This document shows positions 3,001 through 63,743 of a stretch of 64,000 nucleotides of DNA, one piece after another (the stretch's first letter is position 1; each line of letters opens with the position of its first letter). The notes beneath the pieces are model-generated. The model had not been told where the DNA came from. It ran no database searches and saw only the letters and a list, made by a program, of their open reading frames with translations. The DNA comes from Dermatophagoides farinae. Lineage: Eukaryota > Arthropoda > Arachnida > Sarcoptiformes > Pyroglyphidae. Position numbers and translations under genes: made by a program. The stretch lies in assembly GCF_024713945.1 (NCBI RefSeq), contig NC_134677.1, forward strand, positions 4,467,001-4,531,000, given 5' to 3'.

Positions 3001-3715
3001 TTCCGGAATCAAATGTTTTTTCCAAGTAAATAATTGAATGAAGAAAAACGATGCATTTATGTTAGTGAAAAGTATTGCTATTGCATTTGATTTGAAAAAT
3101 CTTCAAACACAAAAAAACACGCAAAAAAATAGTGGAAATGTCCTAGATCAAAATATCTAAAGACTTGTTTTCATTGTTTATGGATGTTATTATTGTATTG
3201 TGAATAATGAAGAATTATTGTAGTGGATTCATTCTCTATTTACATTACTTTCATCACGTATTCTACGGAAAATTCTTCTTGCTACAGAATTTTTTTTACT
3301 TAGTTCTAAAACCATAAATATCTGTTTTCAAAATTATATTCTGTTTAAACAATGTCGTTCTATTCACATATATAAAGTCGTCGATTCTCAATTTATAGAA
3401 AGTAAAAGTTTTTTTTTTGTTTCTTCATTCTATATTTTGCCTTATGCACAAATTCATTAATTATGTTTGATGTCAGTGTATCGACCTTCATTTTTGTGTT
3501 TAAGGATATTATGCATAATATTGAATTTTTTTCAACATTATTAAATTCTATAGAATATGAATAGCTTTCACATTCTGTGTAGACTTGTATGTGCATTTAA
3601 TGGCCAATCGAATTTTTTTATTAAATGCAATTTTATTCATTGTAATTGATTGCTTATTAATTTCTTATTGTTATGCATAAATTTTTTCTATTTTTCTTTT
3701 TGGTCTCATTATTAG
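1..3715. other. non-coding stretch before first exon
   Basis: No convincing exon was seen on either strand. It holds a GAT-rich microsatellite at 31-61, a 15-bp direct repeat (ACCCTAAATACAAAC at 214-228 and 428-442), a 24-nt poly-A run at 1150-1173, an AC run near 1929-1942 and general T- and A-rich DNA. If the exon at 3716 is internal to a larger gene, this stretch is probably intron. The open frame around 2101-2349 is within chance length for this base composition. Confidence 0.5.
1150..1173 (+). repeat. poly-A run (24 nt)
   Basis: Uninterrupted run of A on the plus strand. No target-site duplication or element body was recognised beside it, so I do not call it a retroelement tail. Confidence 0.9.
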
Positions 3716-4323
3716 AATATGAAATGTCCGAAGTTATGATAGTTACTGCTTCTGGTGGTCAACATTCAAAAACATCGACAGATGTTAACCATTTAACAAC
3801 ATCAACCATGACCAATAATGGTAATATTATGGCTCATCATTCACACGTTTATTATCATTATAATTGCTGTAATAGCAATCAACATTATAATAGTAATGAA
3901 AATAGACGTGATTCAACAAAAAGTTTACCACCACCAATGACCACAAACATTAACATCAGTAATAATAATAATCATCATCAACATTTTAATAATCATCGAT
4001 GTCGTTGTGTGGCTGCGACACTAATGACGACAACCCAATCACAACCAAATCAGCCAATAACATCACCATTGTTACGATCATCTGGTTTTGAAAAAATAGA
4101 AATAAAGGATCAGATAGACCAAAATAATAAAGTGAGTAAAGGTACACAAACTGTTTTAAGTATGATGAAAAATGATATAAATGGTAGCATTACTGGCATT
4201 TCCGGTGCTAATGTCAATACAAAGGTAAATGAAATAACATCTACTGTAACAGCCACTGCTGTAACGACGGTATCACCTACCATCAACCCTACATATATTG
4301 GCCACGAAATTGAACAATTTTGA
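3716..4323 (+). CDS. terminal coding exon, Ser/Thr/Asn/His-rich disordered protein
   Basis: Product not recognised. The exon follows a pyrimidine-rich acceptor ending ATTAG at 3711-3715 and runs about 200 codons to a TGA at 4321-4323. Its frame (xAA TAT GAA ATG TCC) implies entry with one base from a preceding exon that I could not find. Alternatively the ATG at 3724-3726 is the true start and the upstream exon is untranslated. The product has no membrane segment or folded-domain signature. It contains runs such as NNNNHHQH, a Cys-bearing segment (YNCCNS, later HRCRC) and a Thr-rich C-terminal third ending GHEIEQF. A KGTQT stretch at 4138-4152 fits the [KR]xTQT dynein light chain LC8 ligand consensus. 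Low AT bias in this frame and length well above chance make coding likely. It looks like the tail of a larger protein, but the family is unknown. Confidence 0.7.
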
Positions 4324-23643: not shown

Positions 23644-26600
23644 ATGGCAACAACAACAAACTGCTCAACTATTCAAAAAATGTCTTGCCAAAAAGAATTG
23701 ACAAATAATAAGGTTTTAAGTGGTAAATGTTGGTATTATCATCATCTTCATCATTGTCTAGATGATGATGATGATGATAGTGGTGCTCGGCAAAAAAAAT
23801 ATCGATTATTAAGATTTTGTAAAAAATTCTATAAAGCTGACCAAAATATATCATCATCGTCATCAACGACTTTTATATTCAAATATCATCATCATCTTCA
23901 TGATCATTATCAGAAACGACATTTATCAATCATCATGACCATCCTTATGATTGCATGTTTTGCATATCTTTCCATATCCGAAGTTGCCTTTTGTTTGCCT
24001 GAAAATATGAAAGATTCAAATTTAAACAACAACAGAATTCTACCAAATTATAATGATAAAAATGATCAATCTGTTACGATCAGTCGGCGGAATATTCCTT
24101 ATGATGATCAAAACAATCATCATCATCATCATTATATGTCTCATCGTGATGTTATTGTTAATCATAAAATCATGAATCGAAGATTAAAACGAGATTTATT
24201 TATATTCCCTGAAAGTGAAAATGTTGTCTACAATCATAATGACAATGGTGAAAATAGTAGTTTGGATCGACAGACACGGTAAGTGCTTAGTGCTAATTTT
24301 TTTTTTCATTTCCTAGACAAAGTCTTAAACCTTTTTAGTTTTTGTTATTTCATTGAATCATCAAAGCCTGAAATTGTTTCAATTTTTCTTATACCGCTTC
24401 ACAATTGTACGTTATTGTACGTTATGAATATAGTTGAGCAACAACAATAATAATAATGATGATGACGATGATCATTGTTGTTGTATACTGCCATAAGAAT
24501 GATCTTCCTTGTTCATGTAGGCTGCATATAATTTCATAGAATGTATAATTACACATTCATGCTTGGATCTAACTTCAATTTCGAATTCTATACATTTCAT
24601 CCAAAAGAAAATATAAAAGAATCATTTTATTTTTTTTTTTTTTTTTTTTTGTTGCAAAATCCATGAATGATATGAAACAACGGGGCACAATGATGATAAC
24701 AGATCTGGTGATGAAAATGAAAATGTGGCATGATGATGTTGATGATGATGTGTTTCGTTTTCTTTTATTTCTTTTTTTTTGTTGTTGTTTTTTCCTGTTT
24801 CTGTTAGTGGTTTTCCATTATGGACATATCAACATTATTATTAGAAACATGGAATAGTAAAGATAAGAGATTTGATTTTCAGAATTATTTTCTCTTTTTA
24901 TATTTCAAGTTTCCATTTCCATTTGGTTTTTTTTCTGGTTATGAATTCCTGATATAGAATTATTGTCATCATTAATGTTCTCGGTGCGGTGTTTGAATAT
25001 GAATAATTTTTGGCCTGTTTTCATCTTTTTTTATATAATTCTGGTGTATTACTGTGAATATCAATTTGATTTTCGCATTTTTTTTCTCTAATGTTTGAAT
25101 CTAAAATTTTCATTGATCATGATTATTTGAAAATGATGTTATGTAAATATATTGATTTTGGCACGAGTTTCCTTTACAAAATGTTACGTGTTCACACAGT
25201 AGATCCTGTATTAGGTTGTTGGAATCATTTTTCTAATAGCCAATATACAATTTGTTGGATATTTTCTTGATTCAATTTTATATTTTATATTTTTTTGGTC
25301 ACGAATTTGTAATGGAAAAAAATAGGGAAACTAAGATTTTTTTGTTGTTGTTGATAGATTTACAATGCTGTAAAACGAAATTTCTTTATCTATACACATT
25401 TCTCTGTTTACATATTTATCATTATTGAAACGATTTATGTTGGCCTGATGGTACAATGTGTGTTTCAAAAAAAAAAAAAAAAAAATTCCTGTCAGCCTTT
25501 TTTTAAATTAAATTCTTTTGGTATTGAAAATTCTTTTTTTTTCTTCTTTTTGCACTTTGCCGTCGATGTTTATTACATTCATTGGAAATAAAATTCATGT
25601 TTGTGTTTGTGTGTGTGTGTGTGTGTGTTTGTATCGTGGTCGTTTGGATGAATTTCCAAGAATGCAGTACACCACTACCACACACAGGACCAGAGGCAAA
25701 TTTATTTCACAATTTTTTTTCAAAATATTTTTTGTATTTTTTTTCGCCATCCACATTTCACTAAGTGGTTGTGTCTGTGCACAAGATGATTATTTTATTT
25801 AGAAATTTTTTTTTCTAACGATCACAATTTAAACACATTTGGGTTGGATAAAATTAAATTTCTATTCCAATGTTGTTAAAACGGATTGCTATATTTGTCC
25901 ACTGTTTGTATGTTTATTTTTTTTTTGCCTAGTATCTCTATATGTTTGTCTATTGCCGGTTTATCAGAATTGGTCGAATCAAGGAACCCTCTGGCCATGT
26001 CTATGTATATCAAAGTGGTATCCGATGATGAAAGTTTATGGACTTTGATGAGGAAAGGACAAGAATGAGGAAAGTTGGAAAAAAATGGCAAACGCAATCA
26101 ATTTCCTTTGATGTGAAGAAGAAAAAATAGTATTATTGAAGCAGCAGGTTTATGTTGGCTATGGCTTATGTGTCAAAGATTGACATGACACATAAGGTTC
26201 CTTAACTAGTATACTGTGAACTGAAACGAATGAGAAATGTAGTTGACATTTTCTCTCTCCTTTTTCTCATTTCCATCCAGTGAAACCATTTTTTCCATTT
26301 GGTAGAATGTCGCGGTAGAATGATTTAGATAGGGTCGGCTTTGTCAGTTATGTGTGTGTGTAGATGAGATTTAATTTCATTTTGATGCAATACAGTTTTT
26401 ATATTTTTTTTATATATATGGTATGATTCGGTGGTTTGTCAGAGAAAATTCTTGCTTACCAGAAAAAAAGCAAATCAAAATGAGTCTCATCTCAATGATG
26501 AGAAATAATATTTTTTTTTCTTCAAAATGGAAAAAACGAAGGATTTATTCTATGTCTGTATGATGTTCCATTAAGAATGTTATGAAATGCGATCTGCATT

Positions 26601-29600
26601 TTTTTCCTTTTCTTTACAATTTTGTTTGTTTGTGCATGTTTATGTCTGTGGTTTTTTTCTGGTTTTCCGGTTTTACAGTTGTTGTTTTTTTTGTCGTTGT
26701 TGTTTGCCGAATTTTTTTACCATTTTTTCTCCATTATTCTTCATCATTCAACAATTTTGATATTTCCATTCCTTATGATTATGGTTCATCATTGTTCGCT
26801 CTATTTAAACCGCCACCAATCATTAAGGCAAAACGCATTGAAAGTTTTCAGATTCCTATTGTACTTGTAGATAAATAGATAGACAATACTGTTTTATCGA
26901 TTCATCGTGGATTCCCAATGTTCATATGTATCGATGAAAAAAGACTATCGGTTTTCTCTTTTAAAAAAGGAATCGGATTTTTTCTCCGCACCAAATTGTT
27001 TGAATCATTATTTATTTATTAACATATATGTTAAAGAAAAAGTTTGAATAAAATCAAAAATATTGCAACATTCTCGTTTTTTATCAAACACACAGTTTGA
27101 CTTTGTATTTGATTTAATTTCGATGGCTTTAGGATTCGATATATATTGTTGAATTTAAATTCAAATCAATATTCAATTTTATTTTGCTTTAGTTTTGCTC
27201 AATTTTCAAGGATGAAGATTTCCTGATAGGATATTCTGTCATACATATGTAGACTGGTTTTTTTTGCTTGCATCACATCTTTTTGCCAATGGCCAATATT
27301 CATATGGGAAAAAAAAGTTTTTTCCCGCAACCAACATGGATTCTTCCATGATGATAATGAAGGGAACATTATCGTATGACACACACACACACAACAAATG
27401 AATTTTTTTCTGATCAAAATAAAAGAAATTGACATACGTTTCTATGTTATAAGAATGGAATTGAAAATTTGATTCAATTCGACCGAACGTGACATTTTAT
27501 CATATCGAATGATCATGATCGTGCAAATTCTTTACATCATGACTATCCGCTGATAGCTATACCTAAAAAAAATAATGATGATTATGATTATAATCATATC
27601 AATGTCAATATGGGGAATGACCATTTTTGGAATAAAATTCTACTATACAATCTGAACAAAATAATTATATATTGATGATGAAATGGAATTTCACCGCAGA
27701 ATCTAAATCGAAATTTTTATATAAAATGAAAAACAGGCGAAACAGGAGAAAAATGGTTATTGTATCCATTTTTGCTTACAATTCTATTTCGATTGCTTTA
27801 TTCATCGATGATAATGGTAATGTAATTCTATTAAATACGGCGGTGATAATGATGATGATGATGATGATGATTTGATCCTAGCTCATTACATGAATCTTCA
27901 TTGCTTTGATTTTTTCCTTTTTCATCGTATTCGTTTATTGGTTGTCATCACTTTTTTTCCTGCTTTCACACTTTGTATTATTATTATAACTATAATCATA
28001 TATAAAATCATCGTTTAGACAACATAAGACATATCCGTACAAAAGTCATTCAAGGATTTTTTTGTTTTTTTTTGTTGTTGTTGCCACGAACACCATAACT
28101 ATTATAACAGAGATTTTTCCCTAACGATTCTCTTAAGAATAAATCGAATTTTATCCTAACCATGAATTTTTTCTCTCTTTTTCTGGTCATGTTTCTTGAT
28201 CTGGTATCTGCATGTTGAATAAATATTAGCAATGTTTGCACATTATTTGAAACAGAAGTGTCGTTGATGTTTTTTCCTTTTTTCTTTTGCTCCAATGTCC
28301 AAATCTCATGTGATTAGTCGTTTTGACTTTTGCTGATTCCATGTCGTTTTTTTTGGCGCTAACATTAGTTTTTATTTCAAGTTCATCTTATAGCTACCCT
28401 TATATATCCAAGCATAAAATTCTCTATGAATTGCCATTTGGTTGTGTTCTTTTTTTCATATTGGTTTCCTGGAATTTTTTTAATTTCTTTCTCTCATTCG
28501 CTTCAATTCATCCTCAATTGTATATCAGGCTTGTATTAAAACTACTGTTTCTTTTTCTCCTTGTTCTTCAAATTCAAATTGAATGATGATATGAAACTGA
28601 ACAAAATAAAACGATTCAAATAGTGAAATGAGAAAAAAAAGTTCCATCTTTTGATCGACTATTGACATAAAGCCATCCTATGGTCGTTATATTATATGAA
28701 TGAAAATTGTTCAATCAAAACTGAACCAAAAAAAAAAGTTTCAACGGTGCTGTTTTTCAAACAGCAGGGATTCAGCAATGATGATACTGAAATCTATTTT
28801 TTTTTATCATTTTGCTACAATAAAAGAAAAAAGAGTTGAAATGAGAAATAACTTTGCCGATATATGATATATGATGGAAATGTTGTGCAATCAACCCTTT
28901 ATCATAGTTGGTCTTTTGAACATTTTCATTGGTTTTTCTGTTTCTATTTCTATTTCAGTTTTTGTTTTGTTTTTTCATTGAATTGTTCTTCTCATTCGAA
29001 TGAATTCTATGCAATAACAAAGAAAAACAACATACACAATGAAATAAAAATATGAAAAAAATATTCGATTTTATCTATTATTGTGTTATTAACGCTTCGA
29101 CAATGATTCAGAACACAAAAGAATCCAAAAATGGAAAAATTTCCTTTTCCTTTTATTCTATTTTATTCAAGAAAATTTTGATGCCAATTTCGCATCGTTT
29201 ATTTTTTTTCTCTTTCCCGTTTCATCATTGCATTAGTTCCGGAATTTATATTTTTCCATAATGATAATGATTGTGATGATTCTATTATTATTATGGATGA
29301 GTGAACCAAGTGGAATTATTATTTCATTTAGATTAATAATGGAAAAGTGTTCAATGATTGAATGATGAAATTCTAATCATAATAAAAATTTAACTGTTTT
29401 TCATTCAAAGCTTAGAAATGATTAATATTTGATTTTTTTTTCTTTTGTTTACTCTTTATTTTTCCAATTTATTTCCAATTCATAGAGAGAATCATCGAAT
29501 GAATCAAACCACCAATCGTAGTTATGAATGTAAGTTGATTGATTTACAATTTGATTATTGAATAAAATTTTTTTACATTATTTATGTCTTTTTCAAATTT

Positions 29601-29996
29601 AGCTTGTCCATCAAAAGAATGTTTTCGTAAAGTGGCCAATTTTGAACGTTATCTTCGATTATATGCACCGAAAAGTCAACAGATGACACAATTTGAATGT
29701 GTACTTCGAGATGTAAATATCTATTATCTATTTCATTTAAAGTTCATTAGTTTTATGTTTTAATTTTTTATATTCAACACTATTTACACTCATTTTTTTC
29801 TTTTCATATTTGTTTTGAACAGATTTTCTTTAATTGCATCAAAGATACTGCACATAAACAGCCAAAAAAATGTGTAAAAAAACGTTATGATCAAATCAAA
29901 AAACGTATCGCTAAACTTTTATCCGAAACTCGTCTTTGTATTGGTGGTCGACGTCATACGATTCCAACTTTATTTAACGGATTTTCATCTAAATAA
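23644..29996 (+). CDS. secreted precursor with dibasic processing site and six-Cys C-terminal domain
   Basis: Unrecognised family. The four coding exons are 23644-24278, 29486-29529, 29603-29712 and 29823-29996, all with GT-AG borders and matching phases (2, 1, 0). They give 963 nt, or 320 residues. Residues about 98-117 (MTILMIACFAYLSISEVAFC) form a signal-like hydrophobic segment. Translation may therefore begin at Met98 (23935); otherwise the segment is an internal anchor after a His/Asp-rich N-terminus. RRLKR at 179-183 is a furin-type site. After it come an acidic/Asn linker and a basic domain with Cys 228, 233, 259, 268, 280 and 302 (C-x4-C-x25-C-x8-C-x11-C-x21-C). That domain has helix-like stretches (FRKVANFERYLRLY; KKRYDQIKKRIAKLL). 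GGRR at 304-307 after the last Cys could be a Gly-dibasic amidation site. The layout suggests a hormone- or cytokine-like ligand, but that is inference. Confidence 0.75.
25593..25628. repeat. (GT)n microsatellite
   Basis: GT-rich run ending in about nine perfect GT units. It lies in intron 1 of the secreted-precursor gene. Confidence 0.9.
26165..26196. other. 11-bp perfect stem with 10-nt loop
   Basis: CTTATGTGTCA is followed after ten bases by TGACACATAAG. It lies in intron 1 of the secreted-precursor gene. GC content is modest, so folding is plausible but no function is indicated. Confidence 0.6.
29486..29996 (+). CDS. exons 2-4 of the six-Cys precursor (mature domain)
   Basis: Exon 2 (44 nt) follows ATTCATAG and ends GAAT before GTAAGT. 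Exon 3 (110 nt) carries Cys 228, 233 and 259 and ends CGAGAT before GTAAAT. Exon 4 (174 nt) carries Cys 268, 280 and 302 and ends in TAA. Introns are 73 and 110 bp, against 5.2 kb for intron 1. Moving the exon 2 acceptor two bases downstream would bring in a TAG, so the 29486 start is the only workable one. Confidence 0.8.
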
Positions 29997-37311: not shown

Positions 37312-40300
37312 TTAACCGAAGAAATTCATTTGTGGAATAATGCTCGAACTTTGCGTAAGTGGAATGGTTTCAGTCAATACGGTTGTAACAGTTGTTGGCA
37401 TTACACTCGTGCTTGTTATCGTACGATATCGTGTACTAAATGCATTATAAACTAATGTATAGACTTTTGATTTGGTCATTGTTGTTTCAGTGACGGTCGT
37501 CATCGTTTTCAAAATGGTTGAACTTTGTAAAGTTGGTGTCACTTGAAATTGTGGCATCATACCGAATTGTGTGGCAAACATATTTTGTAATTGTGCTTGT
37601 TGCATCATTCCATATTGATTATTATTCGCTATGATCGGAATCACTTCAGTTGTATAAGTGTTTACAAGTTTTTCAGTTGTTCCAGTTGGTTCCAGAATCG
37701 TTCTTGATCGTGTTTGACGACCATCATAATAGCTGACCAATTTCGTATTATACAATGTTTCCGTTTGCATCACTTTAGTTGGTTTTGTAATCGTACTATA
37801 TTGAGTGGGTTGTTTCATTTGTTGTTGTTGTTGTTGTTGTTGTTGTAGACCGATATAAAGTGCGGCTAATTGTGGATTTTGAAGAACAGCTGCTAACAAG
37901 AGTGGATTGTTTAAATCGAATTGTTGGGCCAATTGATTCGGTTGCTGTGGAAATGCCATCATTTGTGGCATTTGTCCAGCATTACCAAATACTAAACTCG
38001 GTTCAATTTGATTCGATGATCCAGATAGTTGTTGTTGTTGATTATCATCATTCAATATGTTTTCATCTAAAATCATTGGCATTTCTGTAGGCAAAATGTT
38101 GGCTGTTGAATGAAAAATTTATAAATAATCATTAATATTGCAAAATTAATGGATGATAAAAAAGGAAAATTTACTTACAGTCGACAGAAGTTGGCTGAAT
38201 AGTTTGTTGTTCGGCCATTGATAGATCATCTACATCGGTACCATTGATAAATGCAGTATTCATTTCCGGATTGAATGCCGAAGTTGATGTACTATCAATC
38301 AATATCATATCACCGGGAGGCAATGTCCGATATGCGGTAATCAGTTTGCGAATGAAAAAACTTTCGGTAACCGTATGACTTTGTGTTGTCGTTCCATCGA
38401 ATACTGGAACAACGGTTGTACGCATTGTTCTTTCAGTTACCGAATAGGTACGTGAAATGACCAAAGCAGGTGTTTCAGGTACGGATGTAGCTTCAATATT
38501 ATTGCCAACAATATCTAATGTTGGCTGAATAAGATGGGTATCAAATTCTGATTCAGTCGGATGTAATGTTCGTTCAATAGTGGTGGTCAATGTCAAAGTT
38601 TTCACTTGAAGATGATTGCCTTCAACGTGTTGTGTTACTTCACTAGTAATCGTTTGTACTTCTTTGACAACTTTCGACGGATCGATAATTAATTTTTCAT
38701 CTGGATTCTCTTCAACGGTAGAAGCATCCGTAGTTGATGACAAATTTTCCAGAATTTTTTCTTTAGTCTCAGCATTGATTGATGGTTTCATAGATTCGAT
38801 ATTAGTATCATTATTATTTGTAGTTATTGCTTCTGCTGTTTCGTCTTTAAGTTCCTGTTCTTTTGAATTATAATAATGCTGCATTTCTTCAGCTTGAGTG
38901 GCCGGTAATTTTGATTTAAAACGATTCATTTTAACCTAGATAAATAAAAAATAAAATTGATTTTAACCGATTAAGTATTATTATCATAAATTTTCATTTT
39001 TCTTTGATTTTCATTTACTCTTGGTGATTGTCTGGGAGGCAAGGTGAATCGTTTCGATCCAAGTATCTTTAATCGTCGTATTTTAATGTTAGGATTGTTG
39101 CTATGATTCTCCAAATTATCTTTGCCATCACCATTATTATTTTTACCATTATCATCAGCATTGTCTTTCAGTTTGGCCCATCGTGATTTCAATGGATTCA
39201 ATTGAAGACGAGCATTTAAATGTCTAGCCTTGGAACTTTCGACCAATTTTATCGATTTAGCACGAAGTGGATGCATTTTTTTGGCCATTCCGGTAATGGC
39301 ATTAGTTGTATGTTCTTCTTCATTCCGATGATCATCATCAACTCTTGGTAATGGATCTGAATGTCGTTGTTGTTGTTGTTGTTGTTGTCCATGATGATTA
39401 TGATAGTTATGATGCTGATGATGATGGTGATTTTGATATGGCATTCGAGTTGATCGAACAATTGAATGGTGGCTATAAGTATTAGTCGGTCGTACAGTTG
39501 GACTTGATACATCTTCATTTGGTTTTATTTTTGTGGTACTCGATAATATCTGAGCATATTTACCACTAATATATGTACCGATAACTTTTGTTTCATAAAC
39601 AGTTGTGGAACCTTCATTAATAACAGTACCACCAAGCACAGTAACCAAACCGGTCGGATAAGTAGGAATAACAGTAGGTTTTGTCGGCTTAATTACTTCG
39701 GCAACTGGTACACGTGTTGATTCAATCAATGGTGGTTGAGTGGTCGTTATCGATGATGATTCTCGCGTATTAGAATTTGGTGATGGTGTGAATACAATTA
39801 CGGTACCATCAACGGTCGTTCGAAAATTCAAAAATCCTCTTACAGTAACCGTTGGCATAGCCGTTGCAACGGCAATACTACTCTGTAATTGTGGTGATCC
39901 ATAATATTGTTGTTGTTGGCTATCGACAATGAAACCTATATTTTTTTAAAAAAAAAATAGACAACAAAACAAAAACATAAATTGATGATTCTAAAAAAGT
40001 GTTGACTATGGCTTATTGCCCAACAATCTTATGTATTGAAGTTCTAAGTCAAAATATAAAACAATATTACACATCGATTGACATCCTTGAATAGGCCATG
40101 TCGATTCATTCGTGCTTAATACATTGCCTCAACATTGTGTGTGTGTGTGTGTGTGTTCCAACAATATGACTATTCATTCGTTTCAAGGCACATTATTGTT
40201 TCGTGTTTCTCCACTGCTTGTCATTGTCAATTTGTTCTTTTTTTTTATTTTCTTTTCATTTCATCAACGCTATCATCGTTATAATAATCATAATAATAAC

Positions 40301-62793: not shown

Positions 62794-63743
62794 TTAATTA
62801 CAAAGATCACTTAAAATAGTTTCAATTGCTTCGGCAAATGTTGCAACAGTTAATGTTGGTGATGGATTGATTTTATTTTCATCGTCTGGCCGATATTTTC
62901 CGGTTCGAACAAGTATACCTTGCATACCTAATGCCATGGCTCCGGCAATATCATCACGAACATCCTTTATGGTTAAATATATTCAATATCAAGCGTGTTA
63001 GTCAATCAATTTGATTTTCTAAATTGGCTATCTGATGATAACACTTACATCACCGATCATAACAGCTTCATCAGGTTGAATATTTGCATTTAACGATTGG
63101 AGAGCCGAAAGGAAAAAATTACGATCAGGTTTACCTACTACTTTAACATCTTCAGGTTTAATGTCAGCCCCATAAGCTAGAGCTTTCACGAAAGGACCAG
63201 GACCAAGTGCTAAACCTTTTGTTGTTTTATAATATCGACCTTGATGTATGGCCACTAATCGAGCTCCGTTTAATAATTTATCAAATGAATCATTTAACGT
63301 ATCATAATTGAATTTTGATGGTGCCAATCCAACAACGACTGCTTCGCCTTTATGACTATCAACTAATTCTTTGGTTACATCCTGAAAATCTTCCATTGCA
63401 CACTCTTCAAGCAATAAATGTGGCCAAAGTTTTTCATTTCGGATAAAATCTCTAGCTGCCACTAATGATGTGAATATTTCATTTTTTTCAATATCAAATC
63501 CAATGGATTTTAATCGTTCGTAGAGAAAATTTTGACTCTCTTTCGTCGTATTTGTTACAAACTTGTAACGAAGACCAGATCTACGTAATCTATGTAATCG
63601 AAACATTAAAAATGATCCATAATGATTAAAATTTGAATTCCAATTTACCTTGTCAATGCATCAATAGATCCGACAATTTCATTTGATTCGATATGAATCG
63701 TACCGCTTAGATCAATAAGTACGGCTTTTAATTTACAAAACAT
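62794..63743 (-). CDS. HDHD2: HDHD2-like HAD-superfamily phosphatase
   Basis: Complete gene of three exons (63649-63743, 63049-63589, 62794-62964), with introns of 59 and 84 bp and GT-AG borders. The product is 268 residues; human HDHD2 is 259. HAD motif I is [10 protein letters not shown]: nucleophile Asp11, with Ser13 where most HAD phosphatases have the second Asp. The vertebrate HDHD2 I recall has the same LSGT. Motif II is FVTNTT at 42-47, motif III Lys185 in VVGKPD, and motif IV GDDVRDD at 211-217, where Mg2+ binds. The exon 2/3 junction falls exactly between Asp212 and Asp213. LALGPGPFV and the end region ([21 protein letters not shown]) are HDHD2-like. The cap domain is C2 type, as in LHPP and PGP relatives. 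Probably cytosolic; its substrate is not established. LHPP is the nearest alternative, but the spacing and LSGT favour HDHD2. Confidence 0.93.

Follow-up and report, generated by a model that had tools for sequence, protein, structure and literature searches.

A putative furin-processed precursor with a six-cysteine domain in Dermatophagoides farinae and its possible relation to the DUF19 and DUF1397 families

Small secreted six-cysteine domains occur in several protein families. Saposin-like proteins are secreted and carry a small helical domain of this kind, and CHH/ITP peptides are processed six-cysteine helical hormones. DUF1397 (PF07165) is taken here to be the family of the 27-kDa hemolymph glycoproteins, and the 27-kDa hemolymph protein of Galleria and the 27-kDa glycoprotein of Bombyx are presumably DUF1397 proteins. 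DUF19 (PF01579), or T20D4.11-like, proteins are secreted-looking and have a six-cysteine unit with gaps near 7-26-8-7-23. C. elegans has more than 80 DUF19 paralogs; overexpression of one of them, T20D4.11, gave shorter adults in one line and slower larval growth, and a negative regulatory role is proposed for DUF19 genes in that study (PMC8410859). The Galleria study reports that the 27-kDa hemolymph protein rises after fungal challenge and calls its function unknown (PMC4224417), and in Bombyx the 27-kDa glycoprotein marks an oenocytoid-like hemocyte cluster (PMC8914287).

Here we describe a gene in a window of 64,000 nucleotides of D. farinae DNA (contig NC_134677.1) and compare its predicted product with these families.

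Gene model and predicted precursor

The first-pass annotation had proposed a gene of four exons at this locus, and this splice model was borne out (Table 1). The introns, of 5207, 73 and 110 bases, are all of the GT..AG type, with donors GTAAGT, GTAAGT and GTAAAT and acceptors TTCATAG, AATTTAG and TGAACAG. Exon-end phases are 2, 1 and 0; all three introns are frame-compatible, and the joined exons give a single open frame of 320 codons. A codon score was trained on 43 non-overlapping ORFs of at least 200 codons from the D. farinae genome, which was sampled for this purpose in 20 pieces, each of 10 kb and placed at round coordinates. The window was scanned with this score independently of the gene model, and segments of at least 9 bits were kept. 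On the plus strand five such segments were found between 23.6 and 30 kb; three of them correspond to exons 1, 3 and 4, and the other two, which are short, Asp/Asn-rich and of low complexity, lie inside intron 1. Exon 2, with its 14 codons, was absent from the segments of at least 9 bits. Compared with the null, exon 3 scored above the 95% point and exon 4 at about the 95% point, and the start of the putative mature chain gave 0.30 bits per codon. Judged from the sequence, the four-exon gene model is sound.

Table 1. Features of the putative precursor gene (coordinates are those of the window)
Feature	Coordinates	Strand	Description
Exon 1	23644-24278	+	Joins in frame with three further exons
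Upstream in-frame stretch, Met1 to residue 97	23644..23934	+	Begins right after an in-frame stop
Signal-peptide-like segment	23935..23994	+	MTILMIACFAYLSISEVAFC; maximal 15-residue hydropathy 2.37; A at -3
Pro-region, 66 aa	23995..24192	+	Asn/His-rich, without Cys, RRLKR at its end
First part of putative mature chain (DLFIFPE...)	24193..24278	+	Acidic linker, one NxS/T sequon
Intron 1	24279..29485	+	GTAAGT..ATAG, 5207 bases
Exon 2	29486-29529	+	Remainder of linker; two NxS/T sequons
Exon 3	29603-29712	+	Carries Cys1-Cys3 of the domain
Exon 4	29823-29996 (stop included)	+	Cys4-Cys6, GGRR, short tail HTIPTLFNGFSSK, stop

Two in-frame methionines could serve as the start. The likely true start is Met98 (nt 23935), which would give a precursor of 223 residues; it is favoured because of its start context, with A at position -3 as against T at Met1, and because of the hydrophobic segment that follows it. 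The codon score did not separate the two candidates: residues 1-97 gave 0.03 bits per codon (null -0.14, sd 0.17), and the part of exon 1 from Met98 onward gave 0.10 (null -0.11, sd 0.18). Residues 1-97 contain His/Asp-rich repeats, and the DNA that would encode them is probably a 5′ leader. The signal-like segment was called from hydropathy, and the placement of the signal cut after residue 20 is a guess.

The RRLKR motif occupies residues 179-183 (nt 24178-24192). In ORFs of at least 200 codons, which comprise 17,533 residues with overlapping frames included, the pattern R-X-[KR]-R was found 6 times; this corresponds to an expectation of 0.08 per 223 residues. Cleavage at this motif would leave a predicted mature chain of 137 residues with a pI of 9.6, whose linker has three NxS/T sequons in total. 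Cysteines are found at residues 228, 233, 259, 268, 280 and 302, in the pattern C-x4-C-x25-C-x8-C-x11-C-x21-C; counting from Met98, these six are the only ones outside the signal segment, and all lie within 75 residues. This 75-residue domain contains 19 K+R and 7 D+E (pI 9.8), and its predicted amphipathic helices have a moment of up to 0.56. When exon 4 alone was modelled with AlphaFold2, a helix was predicted at its residues 14-35 (mean pLDDT 65). GGRR follows the last cysteine, and the tail of 18 residues ends at the stop. The positions of RRLKR and GGRR and the cysteine spacing are thus exactly as first described. The sequence also supports the secreted precursor layout, the furin-type site and the basic, helix-prone six-cysteine domain proposed with them, the helix having been modelled for exon 4 only. 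This arrangement, in which a compact basic domain is preceded by a signal segment, a cysteine-free pro-region and a convertase site, is that of proteins that become active when they are cleaved, be it in the secretory path or in the hemolymph. As far as motif and hydropathy can tell, the precursor has the layout of a furin-processed ligand, with a signal segment and RX[KR]R before the Cys-rich domain.

Other coding regions were seen in the window. On the minus strand, 37312-39945 holds long coding ORFs for a Gln/Thr-rich protein, one of which has a match (E 2.9e-14) to DUF4758, a putative sperm flagellar membrane protein. Also on the minus strand, 62803-63660 contains exons of a HAD-like hydrolase, with 63028-63660 matching Hydrolase_6 (E 6.8e-11) and 62803-62964 assigned by coding score. 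On the plus strand, 3661-4323 has 220 open codons with a strong coding score and no Pfam match at E<=0.01.

Searches and comparison with known families

Searches with the predicted protein gave chance-level matches in Pfam, PDB and PHROGs. Pfam returned only sub-cut-off matches at E<=10 (SWC7, DRY_EERY and F-box-like_2; best E 0.011), PDB sequences gave one match with E 1.4 and none for the trimmed domain, and the PHROGs search yielded two weak matches, both to families of unknown function (E 0.018 and 0.15). Neither DUF19 nor DUF1397 matched at E<=10, a result to be read with the fact that HMMER filters drop most weak hits. No paralog was found among the best candidates at E<=10 in the D. farinae genome (62,435,336 bases in 22 contigs, as used for all own-genome searches), and the scan of one viral and one prokaryote collection detected no relative, which is what one would expect of an animal gene. 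A Foldseek search with the model of exon 4 returned noise only (best E 4.1). Among the results listed in literature searches, mainly of openly accessible articles without their supplements, there was no paper on the gene.

Three families were considered and rejected. Saposin B (PF03489) had no profile match at the locus and has another gap order: the complete unit of the D. farinae saposin L033 has gaps 2-27-10-24-5, a summed difference of 35 from those of our domain, its second unit being incomplete. CHH/ITP (PF01147) likewise had no profile match and has a different gap order, that of the D. farinae member L030 being 15-2-12-3-8. For insulin (PF00049) there was no profile match and the CC-x3-C-x8-C signature of the A chain is absent. 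Pfam profiles found CHH, insulin and saposin genes elsewhere in the D. farinae genome, all with other frameworks, so such families are detectable here. The earlier statement that the spacing does not fit CHH/ITP or insulin was therefore upheld by members from the mite's own genome. Profiles of CPG4 (PF15481) and of the odorant-binding proteins (PF01395) also gave no match with the predicted protein; the former matched no control genome either, and the latter found nothing in the genome and had no working control. The acarine odorant-binding-like protein VdesOBP1 is a secreted, helical mite protein with six cysteines; it differs in having 147 residues and five helices, whereas 75 residues span the six cysteines of our domain, and it was absent from the PDB sequence matches (PMC8222343).

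Resemblance to DUF19/DUF1397 units

The search of the genome with PF01579 revealed three sub-threshold ORFs, scoring 18.1-20.2 against a cut-off of 23.2. Searches for relatives of these DUF19-like ORFs gave 9 matches at E<=1 and, later, 29, 8 and 24 at E<=10. When the places found with PF01579 and with family members were merged within 800 bases, 42 remained, of which 31 were at E<=1e-3. The locus described here was not matched by PF01579 or by any of the four family-member queries. Two of the mite proteins, L049 and L052, match DUF1397 below its cut-off, and the Pfam families DUF19 and DUF1397 therefore appear to meet in D. farinae; DUF1397 proteins are longer than our predicted protein and have more cysteines. 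A large secreted-looking family of six-cysteine units thus spans DUF19 and DUF1397 (for example L039-L057, on many contigs), with clusters at C7:129097-131677 and C4:2702961-2704710; those members scanned against Pfam were sub-cut-off.

Two six-cysteine units are present in each of the seven proteins read through (L039-L043, L045 and L047), the others having been read in part. The gaps of eleven first units are 7 (8 in L047, 10 in L049), 21-27, 8-9, 7 and 23-25, the last being longer in L053; those of L049 and L052 are 10-24-8-7-24 and 7-24-8-7-23, respectively. Where starts were readable by eye, about 3-30 residues separate the hydrophobic segment from Cys1. In L051 and L054 (gaps 35-16-23) two first-unit cysteines seem to have been lost together, the pattern that the loss of one disulfide would leave.

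The gaps of our domain, 4-25-8-11-21, differ by a sum of 10 from 7-26-8-7-23, those of the closest family unit among the 15 compared; this set did not include unit L046B. Random placement of the inner cysteines came equally close to any of the 15 in 0.7% of 200,000 trials. However, 11 of the 120 possible orders of the domain's own gaps match the family as closely, and the framework alone is for this reason weak evidence of kinship; three of the five gaps (1, 4 and 5) fall outside the values seen in first units. Of the 11 D. farinae units used, six have an intron between Cys3 and Cys4; this seemed at first to be a shared feature, but in our gene the intron there has another place and phase. The seven mite members have two units, whereas our protein has one, preceded by a 66-residue pro-region and followed directly by the tail and stop; its Cys4-Cys5 gap is 11, not 7.

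We turned to the DUF19/DUF1397 comparison once the likeness of the frameworks had been noticed; in the residue tests the cysteines stay in place, and these tests are almost independent of how the comparison was selected. L051 and L054, which are without two first-unit cysteines, were left out of the profile. With a profile of seven first units the domain scored 9.5 bits, a value reached by 5 of 1000 Cys-fixed shuffles. The corresponding figures were 5.3 bits and 89 of 1000 for nine second units, and 10.3 bits and 11 of 1000 for first and second units together. A three-unit DUF1397-like profile gave 7.5 bits (24 of 1000 shuffles). The profile of 11 first units gave 11.3 bits, which was reached by 20 and 14 of 3000 Cys-fixed shuffles in two runs and by 2 and 3 of 3000 within-segment shuffles. 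None of 95 other six-cysteine segments (87 distinct) came to this value, the best scoring 4.2; the CHH segment and two saposin segments of D. farinae (one incomplete) scored 0.8-2.8 bits. Second units of the same proteins scored 2.9-13.7 bits, nine of the ten below our domain, and true first units, each left out in turn (n=11), scored 25-82 bits. By these residue scores the domain is about as close to first units as second units are, and clearly further than true first units.

The rise from 9.5 to 11.3 bits depends on L053A, an odd unit with a long insert. When L053A was omitted the score was 8.8 bits, reached by 34 of 3000 Cys-fixed and 9 of 3000 within-segment shuffles; again none of the 95 segments reached it (best 3.7), 7 of the 10 second units fell below it, and 3 of 400 column-shuffled decoy profiles scored the domain as high or higher. 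In the HMM alignment Cys2-Cys5 are in register once four extra residues between Cys4 and Cys5 are allowed for, and Cys1 and Cys6 are omitted. The E values of hhalign, 0.19 and 0.045, were not significant, and its single positive control likewise failed. The tail after Cys6 showed no family resemblance (310 of 1000).

Caution on the DUF19/DUF1397 reading is called for by the dependence on L053A and by the gap-order control, and the domain is not filed as a member of either family since it falls short of the Pfam cut-offs and has no two-unit layout. The first-pass annotation had called the precursor unrecognised. This stands as far as a family match in Pfam, PDB or PHROGs is concerned; the word is probably too strong, since framework and residues resemble first units, weakly yet above most controls. 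Mites, insects and worms have a poorly understood family of secreted proteins, to which the domain may be distantly related at half the size.

Possible nature of the precursor

The reading towards which we lean, tentatively and at slightly less than an even chance, is that the gene encodes a secreted, furin-processed precursor with a single, divergent, remote DUF19/DUF1397 six-cysteine unit, which acts extracellularly as a processed regulator. Signal peptidase would remove about the first 20 residues of the 223-residue precursor, and a furin-type convertase would cut after RRLKR to free the 137-residue chain. In this chain an acidic linker, which may be glycosylated, would precede a basic domain that is mostly helical and held by three disulfides. 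It would then probably act in the hemolymph, as a growth or immune ligand or as a binding protein kept latent by the pro-region.

The same processed-ligand layout is consistent with a lineage-specific peptide hormone or cytokine with a six-cysteine helical fold of its own, unrelated to DUF19/DUF1397, which would be cut at RRLKR and perhaps also at GGRR, where an amidated C-terminus would result. The chance-level database matches, the lack of a detected paralog and a DUF19 resemblance that is weak and not significant by hhalign all speak for it. Nevertheless, likeness of framework and residues to the mite units exceeds most controls, and the putative amidation would cost the C-terminal 13 residues; we regard this as an unlikely but serious alternative. 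The basic charge and amphipathic helices of the domain, together with the helix modelled in exon 4, would also suit a cationic effector, antimicrobial or membrane-active, that stays latent as long as the pro-region is attached. The gap order differs from that of the L033 unit and there is no saposin profile match, which argues against a saposin, and we find an effector of this type improbable.

Further readings concern the gene itself. The 97 codons open upstream of Met98 would allow a type II membrane precursor starting at Met1, in which the hydrophobic segment is a signal anchor, residues 1-97 are a cytoplasmic tail and the cut at RRLKR sheds the domain. Such a precursor is very improbable in view of the weak Met1 context, the His/Asp-rich repeats and a coding score not above the null. 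Finally, 141 of the splice combinations tried in this AT-rich DNA remain open, as might be expected if chance open frames had been joined as an artefact or the locus were a pseudogene. Near-consensus splice sites, three frame-compatible introns, coding peaks found on three exons without a gene model and the confinement of the cysteines to one domain make this hardly credible.

If the domain is indeed a remote DUF19/DUF1397 unit, a growth action is hinted at by analogy with C. elegans T20D4.11 (PMC8410859), and a role in immunity by the findings on the Galleria and Bombyx 27-kDa proteins (PMC4224417, PMC8914287). None of the members read combines a single unit with a furin-type pro-region, and in this respect our protein is a variant; others like it may exist, most members being known as places only. 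It is conceivable, if distinctly unlikely, that the gene is the founding member of a new family of furin-processed helical six-cysteine cytokines or hormones in astigmatan mites, perhaps arising from one DUF19/DUF1397 unit to which a pro-region and a convertase site were added.

If our preferred reading of a processed, single-unit relative is true, it would show how a mite could make a processed ligand from one unit of a large secreted family, and the DUF19/DUF1397 fold would gain a small relative with only one unit, convenient for studies of structure and receptors. Many allergens come from house dust mites, a major source of them, and given this role their basic secreted proteins are worth knowing.
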